A stretch of 64,000 nt of DNA, from contig JAAXWC010000001.1 in the NCBI GenBank assembly GCA_013335175.1, forward strand, positions 1 to 64,000. The letters are read 5' to 3'. Shown here piece by piece: positions 4,667-64,000 of this stretch (its first letter is position 1; each line of letters opens with the position of its first letter). The notes under the pieces are model-generated. The model was not told where the DNA came from. It made no database searches and was given only the letters and a program-made list of their open reading frames with translations. Both the position numbers and the translations under genes were made by a program. The stretch is from Candidatus Roizmanbacteria bacterium (lineage in GTDB: Bacteria > Patescibacteriota > Microgenomatia > UBA1406 > GWC2-37-13).

Positions 4667-4966
4667 ATGCTATCTCAAACTCATGTATACATTACAGGAG
4701 ATGTTATCAATGTCGGTATGCGGGCTTGGGTTTCTATACAGGCAAAACTTCTTCATGTAAATGGTTGGGTACGAAATGTTTTCGATAAGCCAGAGGTTTT
4801 TGGTTCACAGGGGGGAGTCGAGGCGGTTTTTCAAGGAGAAAAGCAGCATGTTGATAAACTTGTTGAGTTGGTTCAAAAGGGTTCAGATATTGCACGGGTA
4901 GAGTATGTAGAATCTCTCGAACAGACTCCTACCGAAGTGTTTGAAAAGTTTGAAATACGTAGATAA
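4667..4966 (+). CDS. Acylphosphatase
   Basis: 99 residues, the usual length for this family, which hydrolyses acyl-phosphate bonds. The phosphate-binding loop is present as 'GDVINVGMRAW' (family consensus GxVQGVGFR), including the catalytic Arg, and the catalytic Asn is in 'NGWVRN'. 'GGVEAVFQG' matches the following strand of the fold. The Gln-Gly of the common loop is replaced by Ile-Asn, a modest divergence. The frame ends 42 bp before tRNA-Ala. The substrate cannot be read from sequence. Confidence 0.8.
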   Translation: MLSQTHVYITGDVINVGMRAWVSIQAKLLHVNGWVRNVFDKPEVFGSQGGVEAVFQGEKQHVDKLVELVQKGSDIARVEYVESLEQTPTEVFEKFEIRR

Positions 4967-42394: not shown

Positions 42395-45300
42395 TTAATG
42401 AATAATAAGCCAGTTGAATTTTACATCTGAGTGTATTCCGTTACCCACTGATACTGTGAAATATGGTTTGCATCCCGGCGTTTTTGTGGTGCATGCTTCT
42501 TTTTGCACGACCGTAAGTTGTGGTGCATTTTCGCCTACGGGGGTAAGATAGATGAGCGAATCTTTTGTAACACTCGTATTGTAGATTGCTACCTCAGGTT
42601 GTCCACTGGGTATAATTCCAATACCTGCGGACTGAGTATCTGTTTCAATGGCCGGAGCGTTTAATCCATTTTTATTGAAATTATCCGGTGCAGAAAGTAC
42701 AGAGGCACTGGAAGTTGCTGCGAGGTATTTGTTTAAGGACAAGTTTTGGAACGAAGCAGAACCGGATGCATCAATGGAGGCAACCGTTGTTCCGAGGACG
42801 TCTTTTACTTTGAGTTTTGCATTTTCCATTTCACCCGAGCCAGAAGCAGTTCGTGCCCCGAGGACGACACTTACATCTTGATCAGGAGAAATTGCTTTTA
42901 TTTCATTCGTTCGTACGCCGCCTTGTGCAATAATTTCACCTCGAGAGGTGATGGTGCCATCTTTGGCGATAATGACTGCGCCATTCATGAGGTTTATCTG
43001 CGAAAGTGCTGCAAGCTTGAGTTCGTTTGTTAACGAACTTATTGAATTTTCATGAACAATAATCTGTGAAACGGTAAGCTGATCTGTAATAACTGCCTGT
43101 GTAGCGTTTACCGAACCGGTAGCCCACAGATTTACAACGGAGGCATCGGCAAGAGATGCACTTCCAGAAGCTAACGAATCAGAAGAGAGATTTTGATAAT
43201 ACGCAGGGCTGGGGAGTGGCTGATTTTTAATATCACCCAGTAATTTTTGAACATCGTTCATTTGCTTAGAAAGTTCTTCCATAGACTGGAGAGAGGAACT
43301 GGTTTGGTTAGAAATAGAAGAGACCTGATTCTGTAAATTGGTGATATTTTCAGATTGAATTTCTTTCGCAATGAGTTTTCCTTCAATGGTTGCTTCATGA
43401 GCGGCAAGCGTTCCCGCTATGGTTGCTGTTTGTGCTTGGACATTATTGGCAATAACGACGGATGAGACGATGGAACCGCTGATAGATGCATTTTTAACTG
43501 AAAGATCTCCTGCGGTGTTGATGTTCCCGGCGGCATCAATGGTGGTAACTGTTTTTCCTTGTAGACCTTTGAATATTACTTTTGCGAGTGCGCCTGTCTG
43601 GGAATTAGAGGTTGTTCCATTTTGTTGAACAGATGCATCTTCAGTATTTGATCCACTTTGATCAGTACTGATATCTAATGTTATATTTTTATCTTTCGCT
43701 TTAATTTCATTTGTCTGGATTTTGGAAAGGGTTGCCGTGCCGGTTGCGATTAAATCTCCCGTTTCGATGACGGGTGAAACTATTTTTTCACGGACGATTA
43801 AGTTTTGGAAAGAGGCGAGTTGAGCATCGAGGGTATCAATTGTGGCGTGCTTGGCTGCAAGAGTGCCATTCACGATGGCATGTTCTGTCTCAATAAGACC
43901 GGACGTAATAGTTGAGGCAATTACTTTGGCAAACGAGCCGGAATTCGTAAGTATCTGTTGAGATCCGTTTGTGAGGGTAAAGGTGAGCGACTTCAACAGT
44001 GATTTAACTCCATCGAAACTCAGTCCGGTGGTGGAGACAGAGGCGGTTGGTGTGGATGTGTTTAACGCAACGTCTCCAGATGGATTCAGATTCATGGTGA
44101 GGGCGTTGGTGGTAGATTGCAGTGCTTGAATCTGGGATTGTTGCTCTTGGATAGCACTGGCAAGCACGGCTGTAAGTTTCGAATAGTCTAAGTATTTAAA
44201 TCCGTCTTGATCAGTAATTACGAGATCTGGTAGGATCTGTTCAACCTCCTGAGCTATAAAACCTAAGGATGGTGCCGTACCAAGCAGTCGTTCCGGATAG
44301 GCATCTCCATTCCAGTTGAATGTGACTCCTCGCAGTTTTTCGACAAGGTCTAATCCATTACTAATGGTATGAACGTTTGTTTTAAATCGTGCATCGGAGA
44401 GTGCGGCTGTGTTATCGGTACAGTTCCCGTCGGCGTTAAGATCAAGACAAACAGTACCTTTCACATGGAGCTTGTAAGCGGGGCTTGTTGATCCAGTTCC
44501 AATTCCGACATTGCCACTTGAACCACTGATAGCCATTCTCAAACCGTTTGCGATAACAAATCGGAAAACATCATTGGTCCGATCAAAATCCATATAATTT
44601 CCAGACTCAAAGTTTATCCCGACATTGCCACTTCCAAGGGTACCAAGGTAATAACTCGTATCGTTGCCGGGGTACATTGATCCGCCTGCGTACATAGATC
44701 CTGTTGAACTGACGGCACCAGAGACGGTTAGTTTGTATGATGATGTTGTTGTTGTGCCTATCCCGACGTTCCCACTCGTATCCCAGATTCCACTCCCCGG
44801 GAAGTTGGTTGCTGCCTGAAAGGTTTGGGCGGCAGTCCAGGTATTGGCATTACCGAGATTAAGGCCTAAAGTATAGGGGGCACTGGCACTTCTGGTAAGG
44901 GTAGCGTTTGTTACATTGTTGACATAGGGAAGTGCCGTGACGGCATAGGTGCCTAAAGTAGAGGCATTGATTGTCCCGGTTCCGGTGTAATTGAGCGATG
45001 CTCCAGATCCCACGACCATAGCTGCAGCTGTATTCGTTCCTCCCGTAAGATAGTTAAATGCAAGGGATGTTACGGGGATTGAAGTTGTCCATGACAAAGT
45101 ACCACTTCCGTTTGTAGTAAGGAATCCTCCGGATGTCTGAGAAGCAGGCCAGGTGTAAATATTGCTGGCAAACTGAGTGGTTCCAATGTTAAGGAGGTTA
45201 CCGCCATTCGAGATACGGGCTGTTCCTCCGGTTCTCAGTTCTGCACTTCCTGTTAAATTTACATAGCTTGCTCCTGAGGTCAGATAGGTTGAGGAAATGG

Positions 45301-48300
45301 TCCCAATATTGGTGAGATTTCGTGAAGAGTCAATAACGGTAGAGCCTCCTGCCTGATAGGAACCGGATACAATATTGAGGCTGTCTCCGGTAGCCAATGC
45401 AAGGGTGTTGGCCGCTGATCGATACAACTCTACATCTGTCCCAAATCCAATCCCTCCCGTAGCAGTAGTATCCGAAGCAAGTTCCAGCTTATGCGCGGGG
45501 GCCGTGGTACCAATGCCTAAATTCCCTCCGTCGGCCATGGTCATATAGACAGTGCCGGCGGTTCCAATATTCGGTTGTTGGAAAATGCGCAAATTATTAC
45601 TATTATTGTCAAAATGCCATGTTTTTGTAGATAGTGGATCTCCACCTACATTACTTGCTAACGATAGTCGATTCCCCGAGCCAGACACTACGAGATCTCC
45701 TACTACTTGCAGTGGGCGGATTGGAGTTGTTGTGCCGATACCTACATTTCCATTGTTACTGATTACTCCAATGGGGTTATTAGAGATATCATACCATTCA
45801 AGAATGGGGGAGGTGTCTATTGTCCCAATATTTGCCCATGCACTTGTCCCAGTAGTTGCTACTTGGAAACCAGTATTAGATCCAAATCGCATGGTGGCAC
45901 CACTATCTGTCACTTCAAGTTTTGCTGCTGGTGCTGTTGTCCCGATGCCAACATTTCCTCCAGAGTAAGAAATTTTTCCTCCACCTCCATTTGCCCATTG
46001 GGTGCCGCCTGTTCCGACAGGGACACCATTAACTAAAATGGAAGTAGCATTAATTGCTCCATTTACATCGAGCTTATACGAAGGATTTGTTATTCCAATG
46101 CCGACATTTCCTCCATACGGGTTCAGTAGAAGATCTCTATATGCGGTCCCTTGATCTTCAACTTGGATAATGCCGGTATTAGCGACAACATCTCCATAAT
46201 CTAACCAGATGCCTTTATCACCTGTCCCTAGGCCACTTGCCAGTACTACATGATTTGTTGAGCTTCCAAATCTCGCGTAGCCCGATACGTCAAGTGTCGC
46301 TTCTGGGTTCGTGGTACCAATTCCCATATTTCCGCTAGCAGCGATAAGACCTAAGATATTATTTGATGTATCAAACCACTCAAGAATTGGCGCTCCATTG
46401 GCTGAACCTAGGTTAACCCAAGCAGAGTTACCGGTTGTCCCTACTTGAAACCCGGTATCGAAACTTGATCGCATCGTATAAACGCCATCAACTACTTCTA
46501 GTTTCGCACTAGGAGCAGTTGTTCCAATACCAACGTTCCCATTCGCGTCTATTCTCATCCGTTCAGTGTCGTTTGTATTGAACGTAAACGGGATAGCCGT
46601 GATACTCCCCGAATATACGGTGTTCGCACCGCCAGCTGCACTTGGATTCCCTGCACCAAAATATGCTACTTTTGTGTTATTTGAATTAAATAAATCGAAA
46701 CCAGTCCATGCATTAGCATTTGTATTCCGTATTTTTAGATTTGTTCCTCCTGCATAGTTGTTTGATATTTCAACTGGGTATGAAGGGGCGGTAGTTCCAA
46801 TCCCCACATTTCCCCCTGTATATGAAATTGCTCCTCCACTTCCATTTGCCCACTGGGTGCTACCTGATCCGACAGGGACACCGTTAACTAAAATGGAAGT
46901 AGCATTGATGGCTCCATTTACATCCAGCCTGTAACCTGGGGTTGTTGTCCCGATTCCTACATTTCCCTGGCCTAACCCGTTCAAAATAATATTGGCATTT
47001 GAAGGTGTACCATTGTTTGTCCCCGCTAACGTGAGGGTAGAAGATGCACTTGTACCTCCATAGATCGCTGGTGAAGTAACGGATGTAGAGAAGGAACCGG
47101 TTGAAGCACTCAATGATCCAATACCGGAGATATTTGGAGATCCGGATCCGGTTATAGAACCGGCAAGGGTAAAGCCTTGGACATTGCCAGCGAGTGTGGT
47201 AGACTGTCCGAACCGTCCAAGTATAAGTCCGTTTTGTGTGACCCCTCCGATAGTCAGGGTGCCTGCTACTTCGGTATCAATGGTTCCTCCTCCTTGAACA
47301 AGTATGTTTCCATTTACATCAAGTTTTGCTCCTGGTGCTGTTGTGCCAATTCCGACGTTCCCACTATTGTCGATCAATAAATTTTGCGTTGTCCCACCAT
47401 CCATAGAAATTCCGAATTTGTTAGCTAATGAGTTTCCACTTGCATAGCGTCTCAAAACAGTTGTTGCTGTACCATCAGTGATCATTCGGATAGTGGCGGC
47501 TCCTGTATTGCTCCCTTCCTCCAATCTAAGCTGATTACTATTACTGCTTACGATATGGAAGTTACTTCCTGGATTCGTGGTTCCAATTCCCACATTCCCC
47601 CCTGCGTCGATCGTCATCGCTATCGATGAAGAGAGGTCGCTAATTGACCCATTTCCAATACTATTTGTCCCGGTAAATTTTGCTGTTCTATTCGTAGTCC
47701 CCGTCAAACTTCCTGCGTCTAGTACCTGATTTGATCCCTGATAAATCGTTGCCCCGCGGATAGAACCGTTGACATCGAGTTTGAACCCCGGAGTTGTGGT
47801 ACCAATTCCCAAATTACCGTTTGGATTTACAATAATATTTCCTGTCTGATTGTCTCCAATAGTGAGTGCATTGTTCGCTCGTGATGCAATTGTACGTGCA
47901 CCGTTGAAAGTAAGATTACCTGAAATAGTTGCATTCCCAGTTACATCGAGCATTTCAGTTGGACTAATGTTCCCAATTCCGATTTTCCCTGCCGTGATAA
48001 GAGAGGTTCCAGAGTTTGCAGGATCAAGGAAATAGCCACCAATTGTATCCCAGAAAGCGGTAGCGCGAATAGCGCCGTCTACGGAAAGTTTGTATCCGTC
48101 ATAGGGTGTTCCAATTCCGACATTTCCATCGGCAGTAATGGTAAGTGGGGGAGTCGCATTTGCACCCGGATTGATTACAACAGCACCCGTTTCTGCATCT
48201 CCGATGTAGAGAGTGTTTCGAGCTCTGGTTGCAATGTATGCAGGGCCTCCGTAGAAGGTAAGGTTTCCAGATATGGTGGCAGCGCCAGCAACATCGAGTT

Positions 48301-51300
48301 TTGCAAGGGGAGAGGTTGTACCGACACCCACATTTCCATTATTTGCTACATAAAGTCTCGAAGCGAGACCTGCATCGCCGCCGCCGGACGTTTTGAGATT
48401 GAAATTTCCTCCGTTTAGGACATTTAAGAATGACGTCTGATTGGTTCCAGTGGGAGAGCCGAGGGCCAAATTTCCCGAAATCGAGGCAGTGGGGCTTCCT
48501 GAATTCACATTCATGAACGCGAATTTAGCAGAGGAAGAGGCAGTACCGCCAATGAACATATCAACCGTTGAGTTTAGCGGAGAGAGAGCTCCGTTAGCCT
48601 GATTCCAGTAATTGGTACCTAAGGATGCCGGGCTTGTCCAAGAGAGAGTACCCGATCCATTGGTAGAAAGGATAGCACCATTTGAACCAGCGTTCCCTGG
48701 CCAGGTGTAGGTTTGGCTATTGAATGTGGTAGTACCAGAGAGTTGGAAGTTTCCAACAACATCAAGCTTCTGAGCTGGAGCGGTGGTACCAATTCCGACG
48801 TTGCCACCGGAAAATAATGCCGGCATCTGTATATCAAGGTATCCAATATTACTATCCTGACGAGTTAGCTCATAATTGTCGGTAGTGTCACTTACCTGCC
48901 ATTGGACATACTTTTCTGCAGTGGCTGCAGTAATATAGCCATACTGTTTAAACGTAGTATTGCCATTTGTCCAATGACCAATAGTAAGCGGAGATTGAGC
49001 GGCTATTTCATAACCAACACCCGAGCCAAGAGCAAAATGTCTTGATGCAGCAATTCTACTCACCTGGTAACTATCGATATTTAGGGTGAGCAAGTCATTT
49101 CCTTCAGCCGCTTTTCGATAGATGGATAAGGCTGATCCGTTTGCCGTATCACTTACTTGTGTGTCTTCGCCTATAGTTACATTACCGATAGCATTTGAAT
49201 CTAACTTTAAATTGCCGGAGGAAGCATTAATATATCCGTTCGCACCATCGGAATATACCCCTAATTGATGGGTTCCATTTCCAATCGCCAACTTATAGTT
49301 AGGGCTCGTCGTCCCAATCCCGACGTTGCCATTAAATGCCGCAACGCCATTGGCAATGGTTGAAGGAGTGTACCCAACGCCGAGAGTAGCGGAACCGAGT
49401 TGATTCACGCCCGTGATATTTTTACTATTCCCAGTGATATCTCCACCCAAGGTATGCGCATTGAGGGTAAGAACCCCAGTTGCTCCGATTGTCAGATTGT
49501 TTGATGCACCAATGGTAGCAGTGCCACTATTGGTAAACGTGAGATTTCCGGAAGCATCAACCGACAGGTAAGCACCCGTACCTCCTGCACGTAAGGCAGT
49601 ATTGGTTCCGGTTGAAGTAAAAGTACCCACTGTAGTAGCAGAAGAGGTAGCAGCAACGACATCAGAAGAAGTAGCAGGGGAAAGGACACCATTGAGTCTT
49701 GTCCATAAATTACTACTACTCATCTGCCCTAAGGTAACAAACTCATTGGTATTTACTGCATTAGCACCAATTACTCGTCCGGAGAACTGACCGACAATGC
49801 CTGTTCCTCCCTGGATATCGAGCTTGTACCCAGGAGCGGTGGTACCGATACCAAGGTTGCCGTTTCCAATATACATATTTCCATTTACTTCAAATTTATT
49901 AGTTGGGAAATAGTTGGTTGAAAAGCCTACTGCCAGGTTACCGCTTGAAGAAGCAATGAGAGCGTTGTTCATTGCCGTCATGAGAGGGTTCGTATCATTC
50001 CCTCCAGTAGCTGCGCTATATGCAATATTGGTCCCATTGTATACATCTACTGCTGCCATACTTACGCTCATAATCTTCATTTTTTGTCCTGGATTGGCCA
50101 TCTGAGCGTCAATTTTCCAGTAGTAAGAAGAACAGGAAGCTCCAGAAACGGCAGTTGGAGGAATCTCTACCCAATTTGTAGATCCTTCATCAATGTTACC
50201 CCAGTTGCTAACTAGGCTAAAACCATGCCCTGGAATATCAGTTCCACCATTCCAACCAGAGTCACAGGCAAAGCGCCAATTACTGCCATTTCCGCCTGGT
50301 TGATCGTCTCCTTTTCTGATCACGAGATAGTACTTACGTGTAGCTCCTGGTAATGTGCTCACTCCACTAAAGAGATTGGTCATAGCAGCATAATTCGTTT
50401 TGGTTACTCGCTGCCATCCGGGACTGTTAATGATAATTTCGCTGTTTGGCATTGCAAGCGGTACCACTGCTCGAGTAACTCCATTTCCGCCTGGTACCAT
50501 ATCGCCAGTTGATCGAATTGCACCAGCAACATCTAAAGCGGAACCCGGACTCGTTGTCCCAATTCCGACGTTGCCATTGGTCATAATCCTCATCATAGTG
50601 GAGCCAGAATACGAACTATTTTTAAAAGATATTCCGGTCGTATTGTTTGTAAATAATACGAGATCAGAAGAATCGATACCCAATCCATACGTGGTTGAAT
50701 AGAGGTAAATTTTATCTTGATTGGGTTGACTGCCGAGTGCGATTTTTCCGCCACTAGCAATGTCCATTTTATAATTTGGATTTGTCGTCCCAATCCCGAC
50801 GTTGCCGGAGACAATAAGTCCATTACTTGGAGCAGCATTATTGCCGGCATAAGATCCTACTGCAACGCCTCCGTTTACATCTAGTCTCGATAGAGGATTC
50901 GTTGTCCCTATACCTGCACCATATCCAGTTGAACTTCCGGCTAGAGTTAAAATAGTGTTATCATTTGCACTTACGCCACCCCCTGTTTCCGTATCGGTAT
51001 TTTGTAATCGGAATGAAAGTCGGCTACTAGATTCATCATTAATATAGTTGAAGTACGTATTTGCATCATCAAGGCCTACTCTTAATTCTTCAAAATTAGA
51101 AACTTTGTGATTTCTACTGATAATGAGAGGGTATGCATTTGTGTTTGTAGCAAACTCAGCAGAACCTCCTTCTACCTGCAAACGATTCCCCGGACTCGTT
51201 GTCCCAATTCCCACATTCCCACTAGAGTTCACTGTCAATGCCTCAGTACTTCCAGCTCTCACCCGAAGAGGCATAAGAGTAGAGGAGGCTCCTGTTTGCA

Positions 51301-54300
51301 GATTTAAGAGAGTTCCTGTCCCATTGGCACTCGCATCTGAGGTGAGACTGAACAAATTATTTGTCCCGGTTCCGGTTGCCCAGTTAAACCCAGTTGTGTA
51401 GGTACTCATATTCAAACTTAGATTCGCAACAGGTGCAGTCAGAGAAGACCAGGCCATAGAGGACGCAGTGAGACTGTTGTCCCAGGTCAAGGTTCCCGAA
51501 CCATTATTCTTCAAATATCCAGAGGCATTGGTTGAAGGGAAGGAGGTAACCGCTCCATTGATTTTAGTAATATTTCCGTTCGTATCTACCTGGAATCCAT
51601 TAGTTGATCCGACTGAGAGGAGAGCACCAGGAGTAAGAGTGCCAATTCCCACATTTCCGTTCACTTGAGTAAGGGCAGTGCTACCGAAATATCCGGTCGG
51701 AGCACTGACAGAACTTGTATTAGTTGAAGCGGTAAAGGTGTCTGTATTTACCCCCTCTTGTTTTATAACGATATAGGCGGTGCCTCCAGTGGATCCGAGC
51801 GTTCGGCGAAGTCTCAACATAGCAGCTGACCCGTTCACATTAACATCGAGATCAAAATCATTGGAACTATAGGAGCCGGTACTAGAGGTTGGTAGAGCTG
51901 TAGTCCATGTATTTGTAGTTTGATTATATTTAATTGGTAATAGATATTCTTTTGCTACTGAAAAGCCACTGGATGGTACTGTGATACTTATATCAAACGA
52001 TCCGCCTCCGTTAGTGAGAGTAAAAGTACCGATATCCACTTCATCGTTGACGGTTGTTGGTAGAGTGCGAGTCATGGTTCGAGTCCGCATATTGTTGATT
52101 TTCAGATCACCATTCACATCGAGCTTCTCGACTGGTACTGTTGTCCCGATCCCGACACTACCATTTGATAATATGGCCATTTTGGTAGTTGATCCAAACG
52201 CAGAGAAATATATATTATTTTCTGATCTTATAGCTAGATCATTATTATTACCGTTTGAAAGTAATCCAGAAGCACCTCCTATATATCCAAATTGAGTACC
52301 TGTACCTGCAAAGCTAATTGAACCACCGTTACTACCTGTTGTATCAAATACAGCAGTGTTATTAGATGTGGACACAACAGTTAATTTTGCACTTGGAGCA
52401 GTAGTCCCAATCCCGACTCCACCGGTGCCTTTAGGGATTAGTGCTAAATTGATATTTGTGTCAGAGCCGGTTGCTCGTATTTCTGGGGCGGTACCACCGA
52501 CAGAGCTTGCATAGAGCTCCATATTTGTATTACTACCAGGACCAAGCTTTAGTGTTGTAAAAAAAGCATCTAGATTAGTACCGGTAGAAGGTTCAATCCT
52601 TTTAAATCTAACCGCATATCCGGGGAAAATAACTCTACCACTTCCTGTATCAAGGTTAATATCAGGTGCAGATCCTGCAGGCGTAGTGAAATATACCCGT
52701 GCGTTAGCGCTATTAGTGGTATCACGAAAAATAAGAGCGTCAGTTCCTCCTACAGAGGTATTTATTTGTAAAGCAGCAGCGGGATTAGTGGTTCCAATTC
52801 CGACGTTACCGGTTGAGTTTGCATAGGCGGCAATGGTGTATGTTGGACTTGTAATATCTTCAATCGATATTTCATCCATTTCGACCCATGGACAGATACT
52901 GCTGTCAACCAAATTTACCAAGAAGTTACGGTTGCTCCATGAATCCACCGTTTTGGTGTAATCGAAACTAAATACTTTCGCGGTAGTGGCATTCGCGGGT
53001 ACAGTAGCAAACGTGGTATCGCGATCTCGAATAGTGAAAGGCCCGCCGCTTCGGTACTTAAATGAAACCCGGTACGTATGATTGAGAATAAACTCCGCCG
53101 ACTGTGCACCTCCCGATGCCCAATCTCGCTGGCCTTGAGCTCCGCCGGTTGCGTCCCAGCGAAGCACCGTGCTAGAAAAACCACTTCCAGGTGACGGATT
53201 TGAACGTGTGAGATAACTTGGGGTCTGATTAGACCATCCGGTAAACGCAGAACCGTCATAACTTGTATTATTCATCAGATTTGTCCGAGTTTGAAGTATA
53301 TTCGGTGACCAGTTTGAAAAATTATTGTATAAGCCTCCACTCACGTTTAGATTTCCTTGTAAATCCAATTTTGCAATCGGGCTTGTTGTCCCAATTCCCA
53401 CATTCCCATTATTTGCTACATAGAATCTCGAGGCAAGGCCTGCGTCGCCACCGACAGACGTTTGAAGATTGAATGCGCCTCCGTTTAGCACATTCATGAA
53501 TGCTGTTTGATTATTCCCAGTTGCATTTCCGATGGCTAAATTCCCCGAGATTGAGGCGGTGGGAGAACCTGCGGCATTATTCATAAATGCAAATTTAGCA
53601 GAAGCGGTACTGGTTCCGCCAACCAAGAGATCAGCAGTGGAGTTCAACGGGGAGAGAGCCCCGTTTGCTAAATTCCAGTAATTGGTGCCTAAACCGGAGG
53701 CAGTAGCCCAGGAAAGGGTACCACTCCCGTTCGTAACTAATGCATAGCCATTAGAACCCGTATTCCCTGGCCAGGTGTAGGTTTGACCATTGAAGGTGGT
53801 AGTACCAGACAGTTGGAAGTTCCCAACCACATCAAGCTTCTGAGCTGGAGCGGTGGTACCGATACCGACGTTGCCGTTAGAGAGTAGGGTCATCGCCGTT
53901 GAACCACCGGGGCTGAGCCCAATCGGCTGGCTTGCAGCAGAGCTTAGTATAATTCCACCAAGATAATTAGCAGTAAGCGAACCACTCGCACCCGTTCCGC
54001 TGTAACGACCTGTTAATGTGAGTGTCGCATTGCTGCTTCCACTGCCTTTATCAATCGAAAGTGAAGAAACTCCAGAGAGATTTAAACCACCATTTGCCGG
54101 GGCAATGTTGAGGTTGCCGTTATAGTCCGCATAGATTGAGGCGGTATTTGCTGTTCCTCCATTGCGTCCGATAAGTTGCAACATAGCGTTATTACTTCCT
54201 GAACCGGAATCAACGGTAATGGTATTTGCAGTGTGCAGTGTACCATTTACGTCTAATGTAGACCCTGGTGCAGTTGTCCCGATCCCGACGTTGCCATCGC

Positions 54301-57300: not shown

Positions 57301-60300
57301 GACCGCCGTTTAGCGATTTGATTACGTTCGTAGAAGTTCCCCGCATCACGAATGATCCAGAAGCAGAAGCATCTCCCGAGATATCGAGCTTGGATGTTGG
57401 AGTAGTTGTTCCGATACCAATGTTACCTGCGGTATCGATAACAAACCTGTTTGCTACCGCAGTGTCATCAAAAATACTAAAATTACCAATACCAGCACCA
57501 TAAAGGTTTGTTCCCACCGACCATTTTCTATCCTGATTTTTGAATTGTATCCCTGTATCAGCCCCGCGATTGCTTTCAAAAACTGCTTGCCTATTATTGA
57601 GAGTGTTGTAAACATGGAGGGTAAAACCTGGTGATGTCGTCCCAATCCCTACATTCCCATTGTTTGCCACATAGAGTCGTGAATTAAGTCCTGCATCGCC
57701 ACCGACAGACGTTTGAAGATTGAATGCGCCTCCATTTAAGACATTTAAAAAGGCCGTTTGATTATTTCCAGTAGCGTTTCCAAGTGCCAAGTTCCCCGAG
57801 ATTGAGGCGGTGGGAGAACCTGCGGCATTATTTATAAACGCAAATTTAGCAGAAGCGGTACTGCTTCCGCCAAGGAGAAGATCGGTAGAGGTATTCTGCG
57901 GCATTAGAGCCCCGTTTATTAAATTCCAATAATTCGTGCCTAAACCGGAGGCTGAAGCCCAGGAGAGCGTACCTGATCCGTTCGTAACTAAGGCATAGCC
58001 ATTCGAGCCCGAAGCTCCGGGCCAGGTGTAGGTCTGGCCATTGAAGGTAGTGGTACCTGAGACTTTTATGTTTCCTACAACGTCGAGTTTTTGTGCTGGT
58101 GCAGTAGTACCGATACCGAGGTTGCCAGCAGTGGTAAGTCTCAATAGTTCGTTTCCTGGACCATCATTTATTTTAAATGCCCCTTGGTATGTCGCATCAT
58201 TTCCTAATTGGATTGTAGTCCCGTGTAAAGCAGTTGCTCCACCTACTTGGAATAAGGCCCCTGTAGACATAGAACTCGAAAGTGTTGTTTGACCGATAGC
58301 AAGATGTGATCCATCACTCATGAGTTTTATACTTTTGCCGAACAACATTTCTGACATATTAGAGTCAAGTAATATACCCCCAACATATGTATTGCTAAAA
58401 TCTGAGGAGCTTATAGATCTAACCGAAAAATATTGATTAGAATTTACATTGGTAAAACGTGCTATTTCGTTTCCGTTTGCACTAGAAGCTAAAATGTCTA
58501 AAGATCTCCCCGGATTTGTCGTTCCAATCCCCACATTACCACTAAATGCGGCGTTACCTACGCCACCTAAGACTGAATTGTATCCGACCGCTAAAGATGC
58601 AGAAGCAGTGGCGTAGCCTTGAAAGTTTACGTTGCCTGCGACATCGAGCTTCGCAAGGGGAGAAGTCGTACCAATTCCAACATTTCCATTACTATCAAAT
58701 CGTACACGTTCGTTACCATTAGTAACAAAACCCAATTCGTGAAGCGCTGGGAAATACACACCAGTGTTCGAATCACCCCAACTTCTGAAGGCAGGATTAA
58801 TGGTCGTTCCATTAGATAGTGCTGCAAATTGAGATGCTCCTATATTTCCAGTAAACTTACCCGAACCAACTACGTCTAAATTATATGCAGGTGTCGTCGT
58901 TCCAATTCCGATATATCCGTTATTTGCTACATAGAATCTCGAGGCGAGTCCTGCGTCGCCACCGACAGACGTTTGAAGATTGAACGCACCACCGTTTAAG
59001 ACATTTAAAAATGCTGTTTGATTGTTCCCAGTAGCGTTTCCAAGTGCCAAGTTCCCCGAGATTGAGGCGGTGGGAGAACCTGCGGCATTATTTATAAACG
59101 CAAATTTAGCAGAAGCGGTACTGGTTCCGCCAACTAAGAGATCCGCAGTGGAGTTCATCGAGAACAGAGCCCCATTTGTTAAATTCCAATAATTCGTGCC
59201 TAAGCTTGAGGCACTTGCCCAAGACAACGTACCTGATCCGTTGGTGGTTAATGCATAGTTGGAAGAGCCAGGACCACTGGGCCAGGTGTAGGTTTGACCA
59301 TTGAAAGTGGTGGTACCAGAGAGATTGAAGTTACCGACGACATCAAGGGCTTGGGTGGGAGAAGAAGTGCCAATCCCAACATTCCCGGCATTGTTAATAA
59401 CAAACTTGGTCACACCGGAAGAAGAAGCCGTTAAGATATCCTGATTTTCCAGTTGATCAACAATGAGTGCCGCTGCTCCCGTTAGGTTCGTTAGATCTGT
59501 CGCTACGTGGAGTCTTCCTAATGGGGATGAGGTGCCCACGCCTAAGTTCTTTGTAACGAGCACATTTGCCCCTGGATCCAAAACGATGTTCCCACTATTA
59601 AATGAGTTCAACGTGAGATCTGTGGAACTGTAAGAATCGCCAGCTTGGATATAGAGCGGCGCAGCAGATTTTATGTAAGAAGCGACAGAGTTGGTGAATA
59701 TTAGGTCATAGGCCATCGAAACATCACCGGCGGCATTGAAAGAGGTGGGGACGTTGAAGTTTGCACCAGTAGAGGAGACAGTCATAATGTCACTGCCGTT
59801 ACTATTTAACGTCAGCAAATTTCCGTTGCCATCTACTCGAAGGAATAGTCCCGCAGCAGAGTCTCCGGTACTGGCGTTCCAGATCCTCGACAGATAATCA
59901 TTTTGTGTTCCATACTGATCAAACTGGTAGGAAGGAGCCGTGGTTCCTAACCCTAAGAAGCCATTCTGAAGGAGAGACATCTGGGTAGTAAGGCCGAGGT
60001 CCCCACCGACGGACGTTGCAAAATCAAGTCGTCCCCCGTTCAACGATTTTATGACGTTCGTAGAAGTTCCCCGCATCACGAATGATCCCGAAGCAGAAGC
60101 ATCTCCGGCTACATCGAGTTTCGCCAGGGGAGAGGTCGTACCAATACCGACGTTTCCTGCTCGATCAAGATGCAAACTGTTAGTGAGTGCTCCCCCTTGG
60201 CGTGTATAAAAATCGAGACTCGTATCCCACCCCGAGATTACTGTCGGCTCAATCGCAGCAAGTGTATTTGTTGACCCTATGTCCCCCTGTTCCCATGAAA

Positions 60301-63300
60301 TTCCAAACTTTGCACCGGAACCTATATTGGTATCTTTAATTCGAATGGCCGTATTAGTGTAAGCACTTGTGATCGAAGCACCACCTGCCATAGCAAGGGC
60401 TAACTTTGCGTTCGGTGACGTAGTCCCAATCCCTACATTCCCATTGTTTGCCACATACAGTCTCGAGGCAAGACCTGCGTCGCCGCCCACGGACGTTTGG
60501 AGATTAAAAGCACCGCCATTTAGCACATTCAAGAAGGCGGTTTGATTATTTCCCGTGGCATTTCCCAGCGAGAGGTTTCCGGAGATCGAGGCCGTAGGAC
60601 TTCCTGAATTCACATTCATGAATGCAAATTTAGCAGAGGAGGTACTGGTTCCGCCAACTAAGAGATCCGCAGTGGAGTTCATCGGGAACAGAGCCCCATT
60701 CGTTAGATTCCAGTAATTCGTGCCTAAGCTTGAGGCACTTGCCCAAGACAACGTACCTGATCCGTTGGTGGTTAATGCATAGTTCGAAGAGCCAGGACCA
60801 CTGGGCCAGGTGTAGGTTTGACCATTGAAGGTAGTGGTGGAAGCTACGTTCAAGTTTCCGTTCACATCTAACGAATACCCCGGAAGAGTTGTTCCAATTC
60901 CCACGTTTCCTGCATTGTTAATCACAAACTTGGTGACCCCAGAGGAAGAGGCAGTTAAGATATCCTGATTCTCCAGTTGATCAACAATCAAAGCGGAGGC
61001 ACCGGTTAGGTTCGTCAGATCTGTGGCGACATGCAAACGTCCCAACGGGGCGGAGGTGCCGACTCCTAAGTTTTTAGTAACGATCGTATTTCCACCTGCA
61101 TCTAAAATAATGTCACCACTGTTAAAAGTGTTTAAAGTAAGCGGTGATGATTCATAGCTTTCTCCCGACTGAATGGTAAGCGGCGCATGTGATTTAATAA
61201 ATGAGGCCGTCATATCGGTAAACAATAAGTCGTTTGCAATAGAGACATCCCCGGCGGCATTGAACGAGGTAGGCACATTGAAGTTTGCTCCAGTAGAGGA
61301 GACCGTCATAATGTCACTGCCGTTACTATTTAACGTCAGCAAATTTCCGTTGCCATCCACGCGAAGGAATAGTCCCCCAGCAGAGTCTCCGGTACTGGCG
61401 TTCCAGATACGGGAAAGGTAATCATTCTGAGAGCCATACTGATCAAACTGGTAGGCCGGTGCCGTGGTACCCAAGCCGAGGAATCCATTCTGTAAGAGAG
61501 ACATCTGGGTAGTAAGGCCGAGGTCCCCACCGACGGACGTTGCAAAATCAAGCCGTCCACCGTTTAACGATTTAATTACGTTCGTAGAAGTTCCCCGCAT
61601 CACGAACGATCCAGAAGCAGAAGCGTCTCCTGCAATATCGAGTTTCGCCAGGGGAGCGGTCGTACCAATACCGACGTTACCGCCTTGATCAAGAGATAAC
61701 ACATCAGTAGAATCAGCTAGTCTAAAGCGAAAGTTCTGGTAGTAGGACATGACATCTACTGCTTTTCCACTGAGGTTACTGTTGTAATACCAGGAATGAT
61801 TTGCGTCGGGATAGGTGTAATATCTCTGGGATCCATCTTGCCCTGCAGCTGTTAAAGCGATAGTGCCGTTCACTTGCAATTTTTGACTGGGATTCGTAAT
61901 ACCAACACCGATATACCCGTTATTCGCCACGTACAGTCTCGAGGCAAGACCTGCGTCGCCGCCCACGGACGTTTGGAGATTGAATGCACCACCGTTTAAC
62001 ACATTCAAGAAGGCAGTTTGATTATTCCCGGTAGCGTTTCCAAGTGCTAAGTTCCCCGAGATTGAGGCGGTAGGAGAACCTGATGCATTATTTATAAATG
62101 CAAATTTAGCAGAGGAGGTACTGGTTCCGCCAATGAGGAGATCAGTAGTGGAGTTCATCGGGAACAGAGCCCCGTTTGTTAAATTCCAATAATTTGTGCC
62201 TAAACTTGAAGCATTCGCCCAAGAAAGAGTACCCGATCCGTTCGTTACTAATGCATACCCATTCGAACCAGTATTTCCCGGCCAGCTATAGGTTTGACCA
62301 TTGAAGGTAGTGGTGGAAGCTACGTTCAAGTTTCCGTTCACATCTAACGAATACCCCGGAAGAGTTGTTCCAATCCCCACGTTTCCGGCATTGTTGATCA
62401 CAAACTTAGTGACCCCTGAGGAAGAAGCGGTTAATATATCCTGATTTTCCAGTTGGTCAACAATCAAAGCCGCTGCTCCGGTTAGGTTCGTCAGATCCGT
62501 GGATACATGCAAACGACCAAGAGGGTTGTTTGTACCAACTCCAAGGTTCTTTGTCACGTACGTGAATCTTCCAGGATCAAGCACGATATCGCCATTATTG
62601 AAGGTATTCAGGGTAAGATCCATAGAACTAAAGGTGTCACCAGACTGGATGGTAAGTGCACCCGCGGATTTTATAAACGAAGAAATAGGATTAGAGAAGA
62701 TCAGGTCATAGGCCATCGAAACATCACCGGCGGCATTGAAAGAGGTGGGGACGTTGAAGTTTGCACCGGTATTGGAGACAGTCATAATGTCACTGCCGTT
62801 ACTATTTAAGGTAAGTAAGTTTCCGTTGCCATCCACGCGAAGGAATAGTCCTGCAGCAGAGTCTCCGGTACTGGCGTTCCAGATGCGAGAGAGGTAATCA
62901 TTCTGTGTTCCATACTGATCAAACTGGTAAAGGGGAGCCGTGGTTCCTAACCCCAAAAATCCATTCTGAAGAAGCGACATCTGGGTAGTAAGGCCGAGGT
63001 CCCCACCGACAGAGGTTGCAAAATCAAGTCGGCCTCCGTTCAACGATTTTATGACGTTCGTAGAAGTTCCCCGCATCACAAAAGATCCTGAAGCAGAAGC
63101 ATCTCCTGCGATATCGAGTTTTGCGAGAGGAGAGTTTGTCCCGATCCCAATATTCCCGTTATTTGCCACATACAATCTTGAAGATAATCCTGCGTCGCCT
63201 CCCACGGACGTTTGAAGATTAAACGCACCTCCGTTTAGCACATTCATAAATGCTGTCTGAGTGTTGCCCGTGGCGTTTCCAATAGCCAGGTTCCCCGAGA

Positions 63301-64000
63301 TCGATGCTGTTGGGTTCCCCGAGTTCATATTCATAAAGGCAAACTTTGCTGAGGAGGTAGCCGTACCTCCTAACAAAACATCGGATGTTAGATTTGCAGG
63401 ATAAAGTGCCCCGTTCGATAGCGTCCATAGATTTTGTGCACTTGCACCCGTGGCAAGCACGTTCCATGAAGAACCATTGTAGTAATACAGTTGGCTTGTC
63501 CCCGTGTTGTAGTACATCGACCCACTGCCGATAGCCGTTGGTTCACTTCCAAAATTCCCTATGCGAATCTGGCCGCCATTTGCATAAATATTCCCCGCCA
63601 CTTCCAATTTTTGAGAAGGAGCAGTCGTGCCAATACCGACATTGCCCAAGTTGTCTACAACCATCCTTGTATATACGTCCGTATTTCCACCAGTTCGGAA
63701 GCGAAGTGTTCCACTTTCGGTTGCGACCATAACCACATCACCGCTTCCTGCAGATTGGATGGTAATAGAATTTGCGCTCGAAAGGGTGAAGTTTGCGCTT
63801 GCAAGGGTGGAGCGTACCGCAGGTGTAGCAGCCGCAATTAGCAGATCGCCGGTGTTACTGATATAGGGAATTGAAGATGTTGTTTGCCCAGGTGGAAGGC
63901 CCTGAAGTGTTTCGGCATTTATTGCATATCCCACGTTCGCAATTTGTTGCCGCGGAGACATCTCGGCGTCACTTCCCACGGTTACTCCCAAATAGACATT
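42395..64000 (-). CDS. Giant tail-fibre-like surface protein with internal S74 chaperone (5' end outside window)
   Basis: 7,201 in-frame codons are in view and the frame is still open at the window edge ('NVYLGVTVG'), so the true start lies beyond. From the N-terminal side: 'MSPRQQIANVGYAINAE' (a leader motif I associate with large tail-fibre-domain proteins), then about 60 copies of a beta-structured unit with core 'NVGIGTTAPxxKLDVxG', in larger modules that begin 'NYWNLTNGAL' and recur at roughly 1.2-1.5-kb intervals in the first 6 kb. Non-repetitive insert domains lie near 53.3-52.9, 52.1-51.7 and 50.5-50.0 kb. An S74-type chaperone (44.4-44.1 kb) is followed by about 550 further residues. 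No enzyme motif besides S74 is seen. Probably a fibrous adhesin used for attachment; this is inference. Confidence 0.9.
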   Translation of the reverse strand, partial: NVYLGVTVGSDAEMSPRQQIANVGYAINAETLQGLPPGQTTSSIPYISNTGDLLIAAATPAVRSTLASANFTLSSANSITIQSAGSGDVVMVATESGTLRFRTGGNTDVYTRMVVDNLGNVGIGTTAPSQKLEVAGNIYANGGQIRIGNFGSEPTAIGSGSMYYNTGTSQLYYYNGSSWNVLATGASAQNLWTLSNGALYPANLTSDVLLGGTATSSAKFAFMNMNSGNPTASISGNLAIGNATGNTQTAFMNVLNGGAFNLQTSVGGDAGLSSRLYVANNGNIGIGTNSPLAKLDIAGDASASGSFVMRGTSTNVIKSLNGGRLDFATSVGGDLGLTTQMSLLQNGFLGLGTTAPLYQFDQYGTQNDYLSRIWNASTGDSAAGLFLRVDGNGNLLTLNSNGSDIMTVSNTGANFNVPTSFNAAGDVSMAYDLIFSNPISSFIKSAGALTIQSGDTFSSMDLTLNTFNNGDIVLDPGRFTYVTKNLGVGTNNPLGRLHVSTDLTNLTGAAALIVDQLENQDILTASSSGVTKFVINNAGNVGIGTTLPGYSLDVNGNLNVASTTTFNGQTYSWPGNTGSNGYALVTNGSGTLSWANASSLGTNYWNLTNGALFPMNSTTDLLIGGTSTSSAKFAFINNASGSPTASISGNLALGNATGNNQTAFLNVLNGGAFNLQTSVGGDAGLASRLYVANNGYIGVGITNPSQKLQVNGTIALTAAGQDGSQRYYTYPDANHSWYYNSNLSGKAVDVMSYYQNFRFRLADSTDVLSLDQGGNVGIGTTAPLAKLDIAGDASASGSFVMRGTSTNVIKSLNGGRLDFATSVGGDLGLTTQMSLLQNGFLGLGTTAPAYQFDQYGSQNDYLSRIWNASTGDSAGGLFLRVDGNGNLLTLNSNGSDIMTVSSTGANFNVPTSFNAAGDVSIANDLLFTDMTASFIKSHAPLTIQSGESYESSPLTLNTFNSGDIILDAGGNTIVTKNLGVGTSAPLGRLHVATDLTNLTGASALIVDQLENQDILTASSSGVTKFVINNAGNVGIGTTLPGYSLDVNGNLNVASTTTFNGQTYTWPSGPGSSNYALTTNGSGTLSWASASSLGTNYWNLTNGALFPMNSTADLLVGGTSTSSAKFAFMNVNSGSPTASISGNLSLGNATGNNQTAFLNVLNGGAFNLQTSVGGDAGLASRLYVANNGNVGIGTTSPNAKLALAMAGGASITSAYTNTAIRIKDTNIGSGAKFGISWEQGDIGSTNTLAAIEPTVISGWDTSLDFYTRQGGALTNSLHLDRAGNVGIGTTSPLAKLDVAGDASASGSFVMRGTSTNVIKSLNGGRLDFATSVGGDLGLTTQMSLLQNGFLGLGTTAPSYQFDQYGTQNDYLSRIWNASTGDSAAGLFLRVDGNGNLLTLNSNGSDIMTVSSTGANFNVPTSFNAAGDVSMAYDLIFTNSVASYIKSAAPLYIQAGDSYSSTDLTLNSFNSGNIVLDPGANVLVTKNLGVGTSSPLGRLHVATDLTNLTGAAALIVDQLENQDILTASSSGVTKFVINNAGNVGIGTSSPTQALDVVGNFNLSGTTTFNGQTYTWPSGPGSSNYALTTNGSGTLSWASASSLGTNYWNLTNGALFSMNSTADLLVGGTSTASAKFAFINNAAGSPTASISGNLALGNATGNNQTAFLNVLNGGAFNLQTSVGGDAGLASRFYVANNGYIGIGTTTPAYNLDVVGSGKFTGNIGASQFAALSNGTTINPAFRSWGDSNTGVYFPALHELGFVTNGNERVRFDSNGNVGIGTTSPLAKLDVAGNVNFQGYATASASLAVGYNSVLGGVGNAAFSGNVGIGTTNPGRSLDILASSANGNEIARFTNVNSNQYFSVRSISSSDFSNTYVGGILLDSNMSEMLFGKSIKLMSDGSHLAIGQTTLSSSMSTGALFQVGGATALHGTTIQLGNDATYQGAFKINDGPGNELLRLTTAGNLGIGTTAPAQKLDVVGNIKVSGTTTFNGQTYTWPGASGSNGYALVTNGSGTLSWASASGLGTNYWNLINGALMPQNTSTDLLLGGSSTASAKFAFINNAAGSPTASISGNLALGNATGNNQTAFLNVLNGGAFNLQTSVGGDAGLNSRLYVANNGNVGIGTTSPGFTLHVYNTLNNRQAVFESNRGADTGIQFKNQDRKWSVGTNLYGAGIGNFSIFDDTAVANRFVIDTAGNIGIGTTTPTSKLDISGDASASGSFVMRGTSTNVIKSLNGGRLDFATSVGGDAGLTTQMSLLQNGFLGLGTTAPLYQFDQYGSQNDYLSRIWNANTGSSAGGLFIRVDGTGNLLTLNNNGSDIMTVSPTNTTFNTPTSFTSAGDVSVSYDMLFANPTSSTIKSLATLNIQSGESYDSSDLYLRTYNYGDIVLDAGTNGPSGAGSIKFNDSNVKNATDTTPIGFATGSAEVNTFRSNFASTQSILGALNTAYNAAVAGTGGIWNLNGSNLYPSSTSYNVGIGTTAPGSKLDVAGNVNFQGYATASASLAVGYNSVLGGIGNGVFSGNVGVGTSNPTQKLTVVGGQVDVTAPSAGANLFAGRISGDGYDRVNIDSYGNVITFGGLYSNFFSTKTATQDTKFILPSAGYNLNFRNNADSSSLISITGAGNVGIGTTSPGYPLDVTGSIRATSSLIADPGAGSANASLVLTGRNAGVGSSAQLLADWNGGLTINPKLGQSTRFNYNQSGTGGTVQFYDGQTNEIMRVQQNGNVGIGTTNPSGTLHIGRGQLLIANGTASLPSIASAAKPNSGLNIDPTYGDFIMVVNGIQRGSLNGSGTLSVSQVNAAHAMITGTDSLNTTIAMNVSGSANTGLVVTNAGNVGIGTTSPGQKLDIAGGNILLEGTSVLYLGTSAQSLNQDGYGNINLSNTQSGKLTTLATTGSGAHIILQPGGNVGIGTTNPLQKLDVAGNFQLSGTTTFNSQTYTWPGNTGSNGYALVTNGSGTLSWASASGLGTNYWNLANGALSPMNSTTDLLVGGTSTASAKFAFLNVNSGTPTASIGGVLSLDANGTIQTTAMKPMVLGSSTTGSVQLSPKGTTGLFVDGTGNVGVGTTGPSYELDVTGTINASSTLRVNGLSRISSAGTFYANTGSAGSPGITFNGSTTVGLYRPAANTLGLVTSGAEQMRIDSTGNVGIGTTSPGAKLEVAGAIKTPTTGTLIYNDTNATGNPGSDSFRMKYDSNFYGTNADGLIFEKTDANGASPDGGISFINTGNTGVTNYALTIRGDGNVGIGTTAPGSTLDVNGTLHTANTITVDSGSGSNNAMLQLIGRNGGTANTASIYADYNGNLNIAPANGGLNLSGVSSLSIDKGSGSSNATLTLTGRYSGTGASGSLTANYLGGIILSSAASQPIGLSPGGSTAMTLLSNGNVGIGTTAPAQKLDVVGNFQLSGTTTFNGQTYTWPGNTGSNGYALVTNGSGTLSWATASGLGTNYWNLANGALSPLNSTADLLVGGTSTASAKFAFMNNAAGSPTASISGNLAIGNATGNNQTAFMNVLNGGAFNLQTSVGGDAGLASRFYVANNGNVGIGTTSPIAKLDLQGNLNVSGGLYNNFSNWSPNILQTRTNLMNNTSYDGSAFTGWSNQTPSYLTRSNPSPGSGFSSTVLRWDATGGAQGQRDWASGGAQSAEFILNHTYRVSFKYRSGGPFTIRDRDTTFATVPANATTAKVFSFDYTKTVDSWSNRNFLVNLVDSSICPWVEMDEISIEDITSPTYTIAAYANSTGNVGIGTTNPAAALQINTSVGGTDALIFRDTTNSANARVYFTTPAGSAPDINLDTGSGRVIFPGYAVRFKRIEPSTGTNLDAFFTTLKLGPGSNTNMELYASSVGGTAPEIRATGSDTNINLALIPKGTGGVGIGTTAPSAKLTVVSTSNNTAVFDTTGSNGGSISFAGTGTQFGYIGGASGLLSNGNNNDLAIRSENNIYFSAFGSTTKMAILSNGSVGIGTTVPVEKLDVNGDLKINNMRTRTMTRTLPTTVNDEVDIGTFTLTNGGGSFDISITVPSSGFSVAKEYLLPIKYNQTTNTWTTALPTSSTGSYSSNDFDLDVNVNGSAAMLRLRRTLGSTGGTAYIVIKQEGVNTDTFTASTNTSSVSAPTGYFGSTALTQVNGNVGIGTLTPGALLSVGSTNGFQVDTNGNITKINGAVTSFPSTNASGYLKNNGSGTLTWDNSLTASSMAWSSLTAPVANLSLNMSTYTTGFNWATGTGTNNLFSLTSDASANGTGTLLNLQTGASSTLMPLRVRAGSTEALTVNSSGNVGIGTTSPGNRLQVEGGSAEFATNTNAYPLIISRNHKVSNFEELRVGLDDANTYFNYINDESSSRLSFRLQNTDTETGGGVSANDNTILTLAGSSTGYGAGIGTTNPLSRLDVNGGVAVGSYAGNNAAPSNGLIVSGNVGIGTTNPNYKMDIASGGKIALGSQPNQDKIYLYSTTYGLGIDSSDLVLFTNNTTGISFKNSSYSGSTMMRIMTNGNVGIGTTSPGSALDVAGAIRSTGDMVPGGNGVTRAVVPLAMPNSEIIINSPGWQRVTKTNYAAMTNLFSGVSTLPGATRKYYLVIRKGDDQPGGNGSNWRFACDSGWNGGTDIPGHGFSLVSNWGNIDEGSTNWVEIPPTAVSGASCSSYYWKIDAQMANPGQKMKIMSVSMAAVDVYNGTNIAYSAATGGNDTNPLMTAMNNALIASSSGNLAVGFSTNYFPTNKFEVNGNMYIGNGNLGIGTTAPGYKLDIQGGTGIVGQFSGRVIGANAVNTNEFVTLGQMSSSNLWTRLNGVLSPATSSDVVAATSSATTVGTFTSTGTNTALRAGGTGAYLSVDASGNLTFTNSGTATIGASNNLTIGATGVLTLNAHTLGGDITGNSKNITGVNQLGSATLGVGYTPSTIANGVAAFNGNVGIGTTSPNYKLAIGNGTHQLGVYSDGANGYINASSGNLKLDSNAIGNVTIGEDTQVSDTANGSALSIYRKAAEGNDLLTLNIDSYQVSRIAASRHFALGSGVGYEIAAQSPLTIGHWTNGNTTFKQYGYITAATAEKYVQWQVSDTTDNYELTRQDSNIGYLDIQMPALFSGGNVGIGTTAPAQKLDVVGNFQLSGTTTFNSQTYTWPGNAGSNGAILSTNGSGTLSWTSPASLGTNYWNQANGALSPLNSTVDMFIGGTASSSAKFAFMNVNSGSPTASISGNLALGSPTGTNQTSFLNVLNGGNFNLKTSGGGDAGLASRLYVANNGNVGVGTTSPLAKLDVAGAATISGNLTFYGGPAYIATRARNTLYIGDAETGAVVINPGANATPPLTITADGNVGIGTPYDGYKLSVDGAIRATAFWDTIGGYFLDPANSGTSLITAGKIGIGNISPTEMLDVTGNATISGNLTFNGARTIASRANNALTIGDNQTGNIIVNPNGNLGIGTTTPGFKLDVNGSIRGATIYQGSNQVLDAGSLTGTTNRTAKFTGTNSIGNGSISDLSSSIAMTIDAGGNVGIGTTNPGSNFHIVSSNSNQLRLEEGSNTGAATIRMITDGTATTVLRRYASGNSLANKFGISMDGGTTQNLLIDNSGNVGIGTTAPGAKLDVNGNILVQGGGTIDTEVAGTLTIGGVTQNGLILGRFGQSTTLAGNVQGFTLAGSITGSGSPNISGIGSLSASTGSFSTSVTSPAIYGGTSASSTLTLAGTNNGTPSNANIILNGLGQGNVGIGTTTPGYRLDVNGAINATSILVNGVPVGSGSTQWANGSGGAISYTGGNVGIGTTAPSYPVEISNNYAGGTNLKIRNTNANAWTGFDLFNSNNTKVAYFGAGNPSAAGGANTVYSGSITAIPFTFNTNDTERMRIDANGNVGIGTTAPSAKLEVVDGVYTMRSSFDTGFQVGTTGNSAWVNLGSANGAPILEWFDTSNNILGLIAASGNMGIGTTNPEATLDVSGYARFGSSTNHVVLASGLGTGDKGIWLDYGDVVANTGIIQVEDQGTAYRDLLLNPYGGNVGIGITNPSYKLDVNGAINATSILVNGVPVGTGGTQWANGGGGKISYSGGNVGIGTTAPAAKLEVTDSGATMRFGSNTGFQVATTGTSAWANIGTIDTSPILEWYDISNNPIGVISNNGNVGIGTTTPIRPLQVVGDLVVSGSGNRLSLASNVGGDPLSTKTWHFDNNSNNLRIFQQPNIGTAGTVYMTMADGGNLGIGTTAPAHKLELASDTTATGGIGFGTDVELYRSAANTLALATGDSLNIVSGSYQAGGSTVIDSSRNLTNIGTISSTYLTSGASYVNLTGSAELRTGGTARISNGGNLLNIGTTQFASNIYTWPASQTSGGFLTTNGSGTLSWTTSIPVTSLAFNYLTGGTNTAAAMVVGSGASLNYTGTGTINASTLGTYAVTALPYVNNVTNATLTRSASAPYTLGLNLGNANTWTAAQTFQAATNFPGSGIWDTSGNVGIGTTTTSSYKLTVSGAVSSTGSMYAGGSMYPGNDTSYYLGTLGSGNVGINFESGNYMDFDRTNDVFRFVIANGLRMAISGSSGNVGIGTGSTSPAYKLHVKGTVCLDLNADGNCTDNTAALSDARFKTNVHTISNGLDLVEKLRGVTFNWNGDAYPERLLGTAPSLGFIAQEVEQILPDLVITDQDGFKYLDYSKLTAVLASAIQEQQSQIQALQSTTNALTMNLNPSGDVALNTSTPTASVSTTGLSFDGVKSLLKSLTFTLTNGSQQILTNSGSFAKVIASTITSGLIETEHAIVNGTLAAKHATIDTLDAQLASFQNLIVREKIVSPVIETGDLIATGTATLSKIQTNEIKAKDKNITLDISTDQSGSNTEDASVQQNGTTSNSQTGALAKVIFKGLQGKTVTTIDAAGNINTAGDLSVKNASISGSIVSSVVIANNVQAQTATIAGTLAAHEATIEGKLIAKEIQSENITNLQNQVSSISNQTSSSLQSMEELSKQMNDVQKLLGDIKNQPLPSPAYYQNLSSDSLASGSASLADASVVNLWATGSVNATQAVITDQLTVSQIIVHENSISSLTNELKLAALSQINLMNGAVIIAKDGTITSRGEIIAQGGVRTNEIKAISPDQDVSVVLGARTASGSGEMENAKLKVKDVLGTTVASIDASGSASFQNLSLNKYLAATSSASVLSAPDNFNKNGLNAPAIETDTQSAGIGIIPSGQPEVAIYNTSVTKDSLIYLTPVGENAPQLTVVQKEACTTKTPGCKPYFTVSVGNGIHSDVKFNWLIIH
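44100..44404 (-). other. S74 intramolecular chaperone domain within the giant protein
   Basis: 'LSDARFKTNVHTI' carries the Ser-Lys pair of the endosialidase-type chaperone; the Ser codon is at 44396-44398. Downstream text 'GVTFNWNGDAYP', 'GFIAQEVEQILPDLV' and 'YLDYSKLTAVLASAIQEQ' completes the domain. In phage tail spikes this domain drives trimer folding and then cuts itself off before the Ser. Here 667 residues, counting that Ser, lie from the cut site to the stop codon. Confidence 0.88.
52860..53300 (-). other. Non-repetitive insert domain in the giant protein (carbohydrate-binding-like)
   Basis: About 145 residues between two 'GIGT' units: 'NTSYDGSAFTGWSNQ', 'NHTYRVSFKYRSGGPF' and 'WVEMDEISIED'. 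The pattern of a named-part opening, a central 'YRVSFKYR' strand and a closing 'DEISIED' strand is that of beta-sandwich carbohydrate-binding modules. Ligand unknown. Confidence 0.5.
57000..63420 (-). repeat. Higher-order tandem repeats in the giant gene
   Basis: Near-identical DNA blocks recur around 57260-57380, 59995-60110, 61520-61635 and 62995-63110 (text GACGTTCGTAGAAGTTCCCC in each). The three between 59.2 and 63.1 kb sit at about 1.5-kb spacing, each encoding a module of about 500 residues. Recombination between them could change fibre length. Confidence 0.85.

Follow-up and report, generated by a model that had tools for sequence, protein, structure and literature searches.

A 7,448-residue, probably membrane-tethered fibre related to Bdellovibrio MAT proteins in a Roizmanbacteria-type Patescibacterium

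Known fibres and the frame of the giant gene

The mosaic adhesive trimer (MAT) fibres of Bdellovibrio bacteriovorus are displayed on the cell surface; one of them binds prey glycans and a member with an S74 domain cleaves itself (PMC10769870). Giant open reading frames (ORFs) in Omnitrophota and other nanosized bacteria encode surface-type proteins of small, probably host-dependent cells. Adhesion has been proposed for them, and they have few annotated domains, often many transmembrane (TM) helices and poor conservation; large ORFs in Patescibacteria have likewise been proposed as adhesins (PMC10066038), and size alone is therefore not new. The phage S74 tail fibres and tailspikes, for example the K1F endosialidase and the T5 L-shaped fibre, combine an S74 chaperone with beta-helical repeats. 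An S74 (ICA) domain is also found within a larger protein in the myelin regulatory factor MYRF (PDB 7dc3), which is a eukaryotic transcription factor of unrelated function. To our knowledge, little can be said of how uncultivated Patescibacteria recognise or hold other microbes.

In our analysis a Roizmanbacteria-type Patescibacterium has a giant gene whose product is probably a membrane-tethered, MAT-like trimeric surface fibre or adhesin. It shares with the MAT fibres of Bdellovibrio (Bd2133, Bd3182; NF053851) a related N-terminal domain, a beta-helical shaft of the GIGT/capping-loop type, an optional S74 domain with the SDxxxK dyad and a variable tip, and both Bdellovibrio and the cultivated Patescibacteria live on other microbes. 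It differs from them in being about 7 times longer than a typical MAT of 1,000 amino acids (aa), in having a TM anchor with an Xer-type, presumably cytoplasmic segment where MATs have a signal peptide, and in having an internal S74 domain followed by a conserved region of 667 residues. In contrast to the giant ORFs of nanosized bacteria, its architecture is conserved, only a single TM helix is predicted and the fibre shaft can be recognised. Four features have no earlier account in the literature read here: the relationship of a patescibacterial fibre to the MATs, an inner anchor derived from Xer that is either fused or split, an S74 domain that is internal and optional with conserved sequence on its C-terminal side, and the linkage to genes for a prepilin and a membrane protein.

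The window, that is the whole stretch of 64,000 nucleotides analysed here, contains a minus-strand frame that is unbroken from the edge at 64000 down to a stop at 42395. A sequence-only reading of the window had described a frame of more than 7,200 codons, still open at the edge. This frame is real, and when the contig was extended in search of the N-terminus and any anchor, as that reading had proposed, 741 further bases completed the ORF with an ATG at C32:64741, followed by a membrane anchor with an Xer-type SAM-like segment. The whole gene (C32:42395-64741, minus strand; 42395..64000 in the window) encodes 7,448 aa. Among several candidates this ATG is the likeliest start codon; it overlaps the upstream ORF by 8 nt, and the first in-frame stop upstream of it is at 64811. 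The genome is a metagenome-assembled genome (MAG) of 1,453,037 bases in 46 contigs with an estimated completeness of 100%, of which the fibre gene makes up 1.5%, and the source organism is tiny and probably dependent on a host.

The similar super-repeats of the gene and the 46 contigs of the MAG raise the question of whether several shorter fibre genes were joined into a chimaera during assembly. We regard this as very improbable. The longest exact DNA repeat inside the gene is 96 nt, and in an ungapped comparison of copies of a 104-residue shaft segment dS is about 0.5-2.8 and dN/dS mostly 0.05-0.17; one copy, at 3211, gives 0.24-0.59, having either diverged or lost register in the ungapped alignment. 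The repeat copies are under strong purifying selection, and neither frame drift nor a collapsed recent duplication fits such short exact repeats together with heavy synonymous divergence and low dN/dS. Relatives have N-free frames of 6,112, 5,350, 4,717, 4,529 and 4,446 aa, the last from a single-contig genome. Taken together, these indirect checks of the assembly, made from the sequence, make an artefact unlikely. The 7,448-aa fibre is the longest N-free family member seen. Apparent frames of 24,949 aa (G299), 25,790 aa (G666) and 6,561 aa (G152) in other relatives are masking artefacts on stretches of N, and a frame of 5,888 aa (G291) has N inside.

Shaft, S74 domain and distal tip

Most of the gene encodes a shaft (44480..63646, minus strand) of about 60 'GIGT' units with the motif [VLI]G[IVL]GTxxPxxxL and non-repeat inserts between them. 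The sequence-only reading had estimated this number of units well: the fibre has 47 exact GIGT and 62 G[ILVMF]GT, and the longer motif occurs 56 times where shuffled sequences give an expectation of 0.07. The first part of the shaft is arranged in super-repeats of about 490-510 aa, and its composition is repetitive and rich in Ser, Thr, Asn and Gly. In phmmer searches the shaft matches the crystallised Bdellovibrio protein Bd2133 (PDB 8ond) with E=1.2e-6, another stretch with 2e-6, and the Bdellovibrio MAT protein of PDB 8ojn with E=6.8e-4. The capping-loop motif as printed in the MAT paper, taken literally, has no copy in the fibre, and the link of the shaft to the MATs therefore depends on the Bd2133 alignment. 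The protein had been called phage-fibre-like; the fibre-like part of this description holds, but of the characterised proteins tested, the cellular Bdellovibrio MATs come closest to it, not phage fibres. Two insert stretches have no GIGT unit (52832..53329, aa ~3805-3970, and 49952..50509, aa ~4745-4930, both minus strand); neither has a Pfam match, and a regional PDB search gave Bdellovibrio-MAT-type matches alone.

Downstream of the shaft lies a Peptidase_S74 intramolecular chaperone domain (PF13884; 44219..44398, minus strand), which had been recognised from the sequence and scores 60.6 bits against a cut-off of 22. Its SDxxxK dyad consists of Ser6782 (44396-44398) and Lys6787 (44381-44383) in 'LSDARFK'. 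The domain is internal, since 667 residues follow its serine. The region after it (42395..44218, minus strand) is conserved, with predicted helices and beta repeats, and its last part is kept in family members with or without S74. The domain itself is optional, being carried by only some members of the family; 18 of the 83 genomes in the order have S74, not always within the fibre protein. If it is active, S74 might cut ahead of the C-terminal part and free it from the shaft.

The protein ends in a beta-sandwich tip (42398..42643, minus strand; aa 7367-7448) of a family ending in '..FNWLIIN'. AlphaFold models of two fibre ends are poor overall (pLDDT 49 and 54), and the tip block, mostly at 70-89, is the only part used here. 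In VIA searches with the last 82 residues, the top matches come from Klebsiella phage depolymerases and the Pam1 tailspike, in each case from the C-terminal domain, with Z of 8.3, 8.0 and 7.0, a Z of about 8 being close to the level at which a common fold may carry little meaning. The modelled tip can be described as resembling the C-terminal domains of phage capsule depolymerases and tailspikes (Z 7.0-8.3).

An attachment role had been thought plausible from the sequence, and we also find it so; the partner may be a host cell. We propose that the single helix would keep the N-terminus inside the cell while Sec exports the remainder, and that three chains would form an intertwined beta-helical shaft, with S74 assisting in the 7,448-aa copy. 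If it scales as Bd3182 does (550 Angstrom per ~920 residues), the shaft would be about 0.4 micrometre long, and such a length would keep the inserts and the distal tip far from the cell, where they could grip the glycans of a partner microbe. Its extreme length and repetitive Ser/Thr/Asn/Gly-rich shaft could also be read as those of a structural coat filament, in which long fibres mainly wrap the cell for protection or spacing rather than act as a specific adhesin, and a giant Omnitrophota ORF has been proposed to form a coat (PMC10066038). This reading seems to us rather unlikely, because the tip and an insert of a paralogue look like binding modules, the characterised proteins closest to it recognise the surfaces of prey (PMC10769870), and length differs widely among relatives, which is unusual for a lattice protein. 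As a probable adhesin, the fibre family offers a concrete and testable candidate for the attachment machinery of Patescibacteria. The family has a recognisable fold and is common in one class, its genes in close relatives are linked to one for a prepilin and another that may serve glycosylation, and it would tie attachment in Patescibacteria to fibres that a bacterial predator uses for prey recognition.

The inner end of the fibre

The first 153 residues of the fibre (C32:64283-64741, minus strand) comprise half of an Xer-type SAM-like fold, a linker and the one predicted TM helix (aa ~127-153). Residues 1-79 are the second half of the Xer/integrase SAM-like fold and align to positions 43-99 of the XerC model. 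The ORF that overlaps the fibre start (176 aa; C32:64734-65264 = L004:4734-5264) has an Xer/integrase N-terminal SAM-like domain (PF02899, E=3e-11; XerC model 2-117 of 295, E=6e-14). It contains one whole SAM-like domain, and from its sequence it looks as if it also starts a second. Neither this ORF nor the fibre N-terminus has the C-terminal catalytic domain of XerC/XerD, their matches covering model positions 2-117 of 295 and 43-99. Of the 78 family loci that were scored, 72 have an Xer-type domain. In 37 of them it is part of the fibre ORF itself and in 35 it lies in a separate upstream ORF; none was seen at the other six. In the literature searched we found no earlier description of an Xer-type inner anchor associated with a fibre.

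Following the helix is a MAT_N-related beta domain (aa 166-285, C32:63887-64246, minus strand, with its in-window end at 63887..64000), which reads 'ISFQGRMTD...IANVGYAINAETLQG'. The Bdello_MAT_N model NF053851 matches all nine family members tested, with a best E of 5.7e-6 and scores, where shown, of about 20-25 bits against a curated cut-off of 60 bits. No signal peptide was found directly ahead of this domain, where the SAM-like segment and the TM helix take its place. Since there is no signal peptide and the MAT_N scores are below the curated cut-off, we call the fibre MAT-like and not a member of the MATs. With the N-terminal AlphaFold model, VIA and Foldseek gave generic beta-sandwich and helical matches alone, with no MAT_N structure among them.

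The Xer-derived module could be more than an anchor. It is conceivable, although doubtful, that it serves as a functional coupler between the external host-contact fibre and a DNA or cytoplasmic partner, in which case the fibre would be a transmembrane contact sensor and not a grip alone. About half of the loci split the module, and two polypeptides would there complete its second fold. A palindromic element containing GTCATCCCCGCGAAGGCGGGGATCC occurs as two 58-nt copies in the intergenic gap (L004:5799-5959) that lies upstream of the ORF with the SAM-like domain. A palindromic repeat inserted into the coding linker was also considered, and is unsupported, with a single copy in the genome.

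Family distribution and neighbouring genes

A profile of the anchor plus MAT_N matches 72 of the 83 genomes of the order at E<=0.001, many of the matches being merely ordinary proteins of Xer-recombinase size, and 136 of the 372 genomes of the class at E<=1e-25. In the rest of the phylum it is mostly the MAT_N part alone that matches. Across the class the N- and C-termini are conserved and the repeat middle varies in length. The family is common in its class, which makes the fibre a lineage trait and not a one-off.

Phage S74 fibres share with this protein the S74 chaperone, beta-helical repeats and a similar tip fold, and matches to tail-fibre families of PHROGs reach E=3e-39 for the repeats and 1e-29 for S74. 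These matches would fit a degraded or domesticated tail-fibre gene left by a prophage. Such an origin is nevertheless highly unlikely. The sequence-only reading saw no phage structural gene nearby, and none was found among the window-side neighbours tested, which are housekeeping genes (GMP synthase, IMPDH, enolase, ThyA, QueA, Tgt and Rho), while 6.7 kb upstream reads as N. The N-terminal anchor and MAT_N domain have no match in the phage, plasmid and viral-contig collections, and many genomes of the class have the gene, which is under strong purifying selection. It differs further from the phage fibres in its membrane anchor and in an S74 domain that is not terminal. We conclude that this is a chromosomal surface-fibre family and not a prophage remnant.

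The neighbour noted earlier as a prepilin is a prepilin-like protein (PF07963; 41681..42373, minus strand) that adjoins the fibre. Prepilins of five relatives share 33-41% identity with it, and the linkage is kept in several: the prepilin lies about 0.1-4.5 kb from the fibre in G030, G062, G027 and G007, with the copy of G074 elsewhere. By HMM matches and direct reading, a prepilin is near the fibre in G000, G007, G027, G030 and G062. A regular-expression search of contig flanks located a prepilin close to the fibre at 1 of 15 loci, and so the linkage is not general. Beyond the prepilin is a multi-pass membrane protein with TPRs (38751..40889, plus strand), possibly of the O-antigen-ligase/O-oligosaccharyltransferase type, which is 40-49% identical to the product of the next gene beyond the prepilin in G007, G030 and G062. 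The G030 copy has a weak, below-cut-off match to Wzy_C (E=4.5e-5), which suggests an O-oligosaccharyltransferase-like role for the protein at 38751-40889. The prepilin and this neighbour of the Wzy_C/TPR type together suggest a joint adhesion locus for pilus, fibre and glycosylation. At 37599-38672 in the window there is a cell-wall hydrolase with LysM and an M23 peptidase, of possible relevance to host contact.

The same genome has two paralogues with S74. One is a second giant fibre of 3,512 aa on contig 27 (L005:6038-16576), whose shaft is interrupted by a PA14/GLEYA-type domain; its N-terminus lacks the SAM-like domain and resembles a simple TM segment. The other, of 1,111 aa (contig 37, L006:5761-9096), is similar in its C-terminal region to the contig-27 fibre. 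The relative G007 has an additional S74 fibre of 1,126 aa (L128:453-3833) placed between its main fibre and its prepilin, and the locus may therefore have undergone duplication or exchange of cassettes.

Upstream of the locus, the 6.7 kb of N (L004:7390-14070, C32 ~67390-74070) contain false ORFs of 2,300 aa on both strands and could conceal relevant genes; the long opposed ORFs at L004 7160-14499 are an artefact of this stretch. Proteins of surface type follow at L004:14096-16457. One, a TM protein that ends near 14499, has an apparent Ig-like tail, and another, on the minus strand at L004 15426-16457, has weak matches to WxLIP_PGBD and Fn3.
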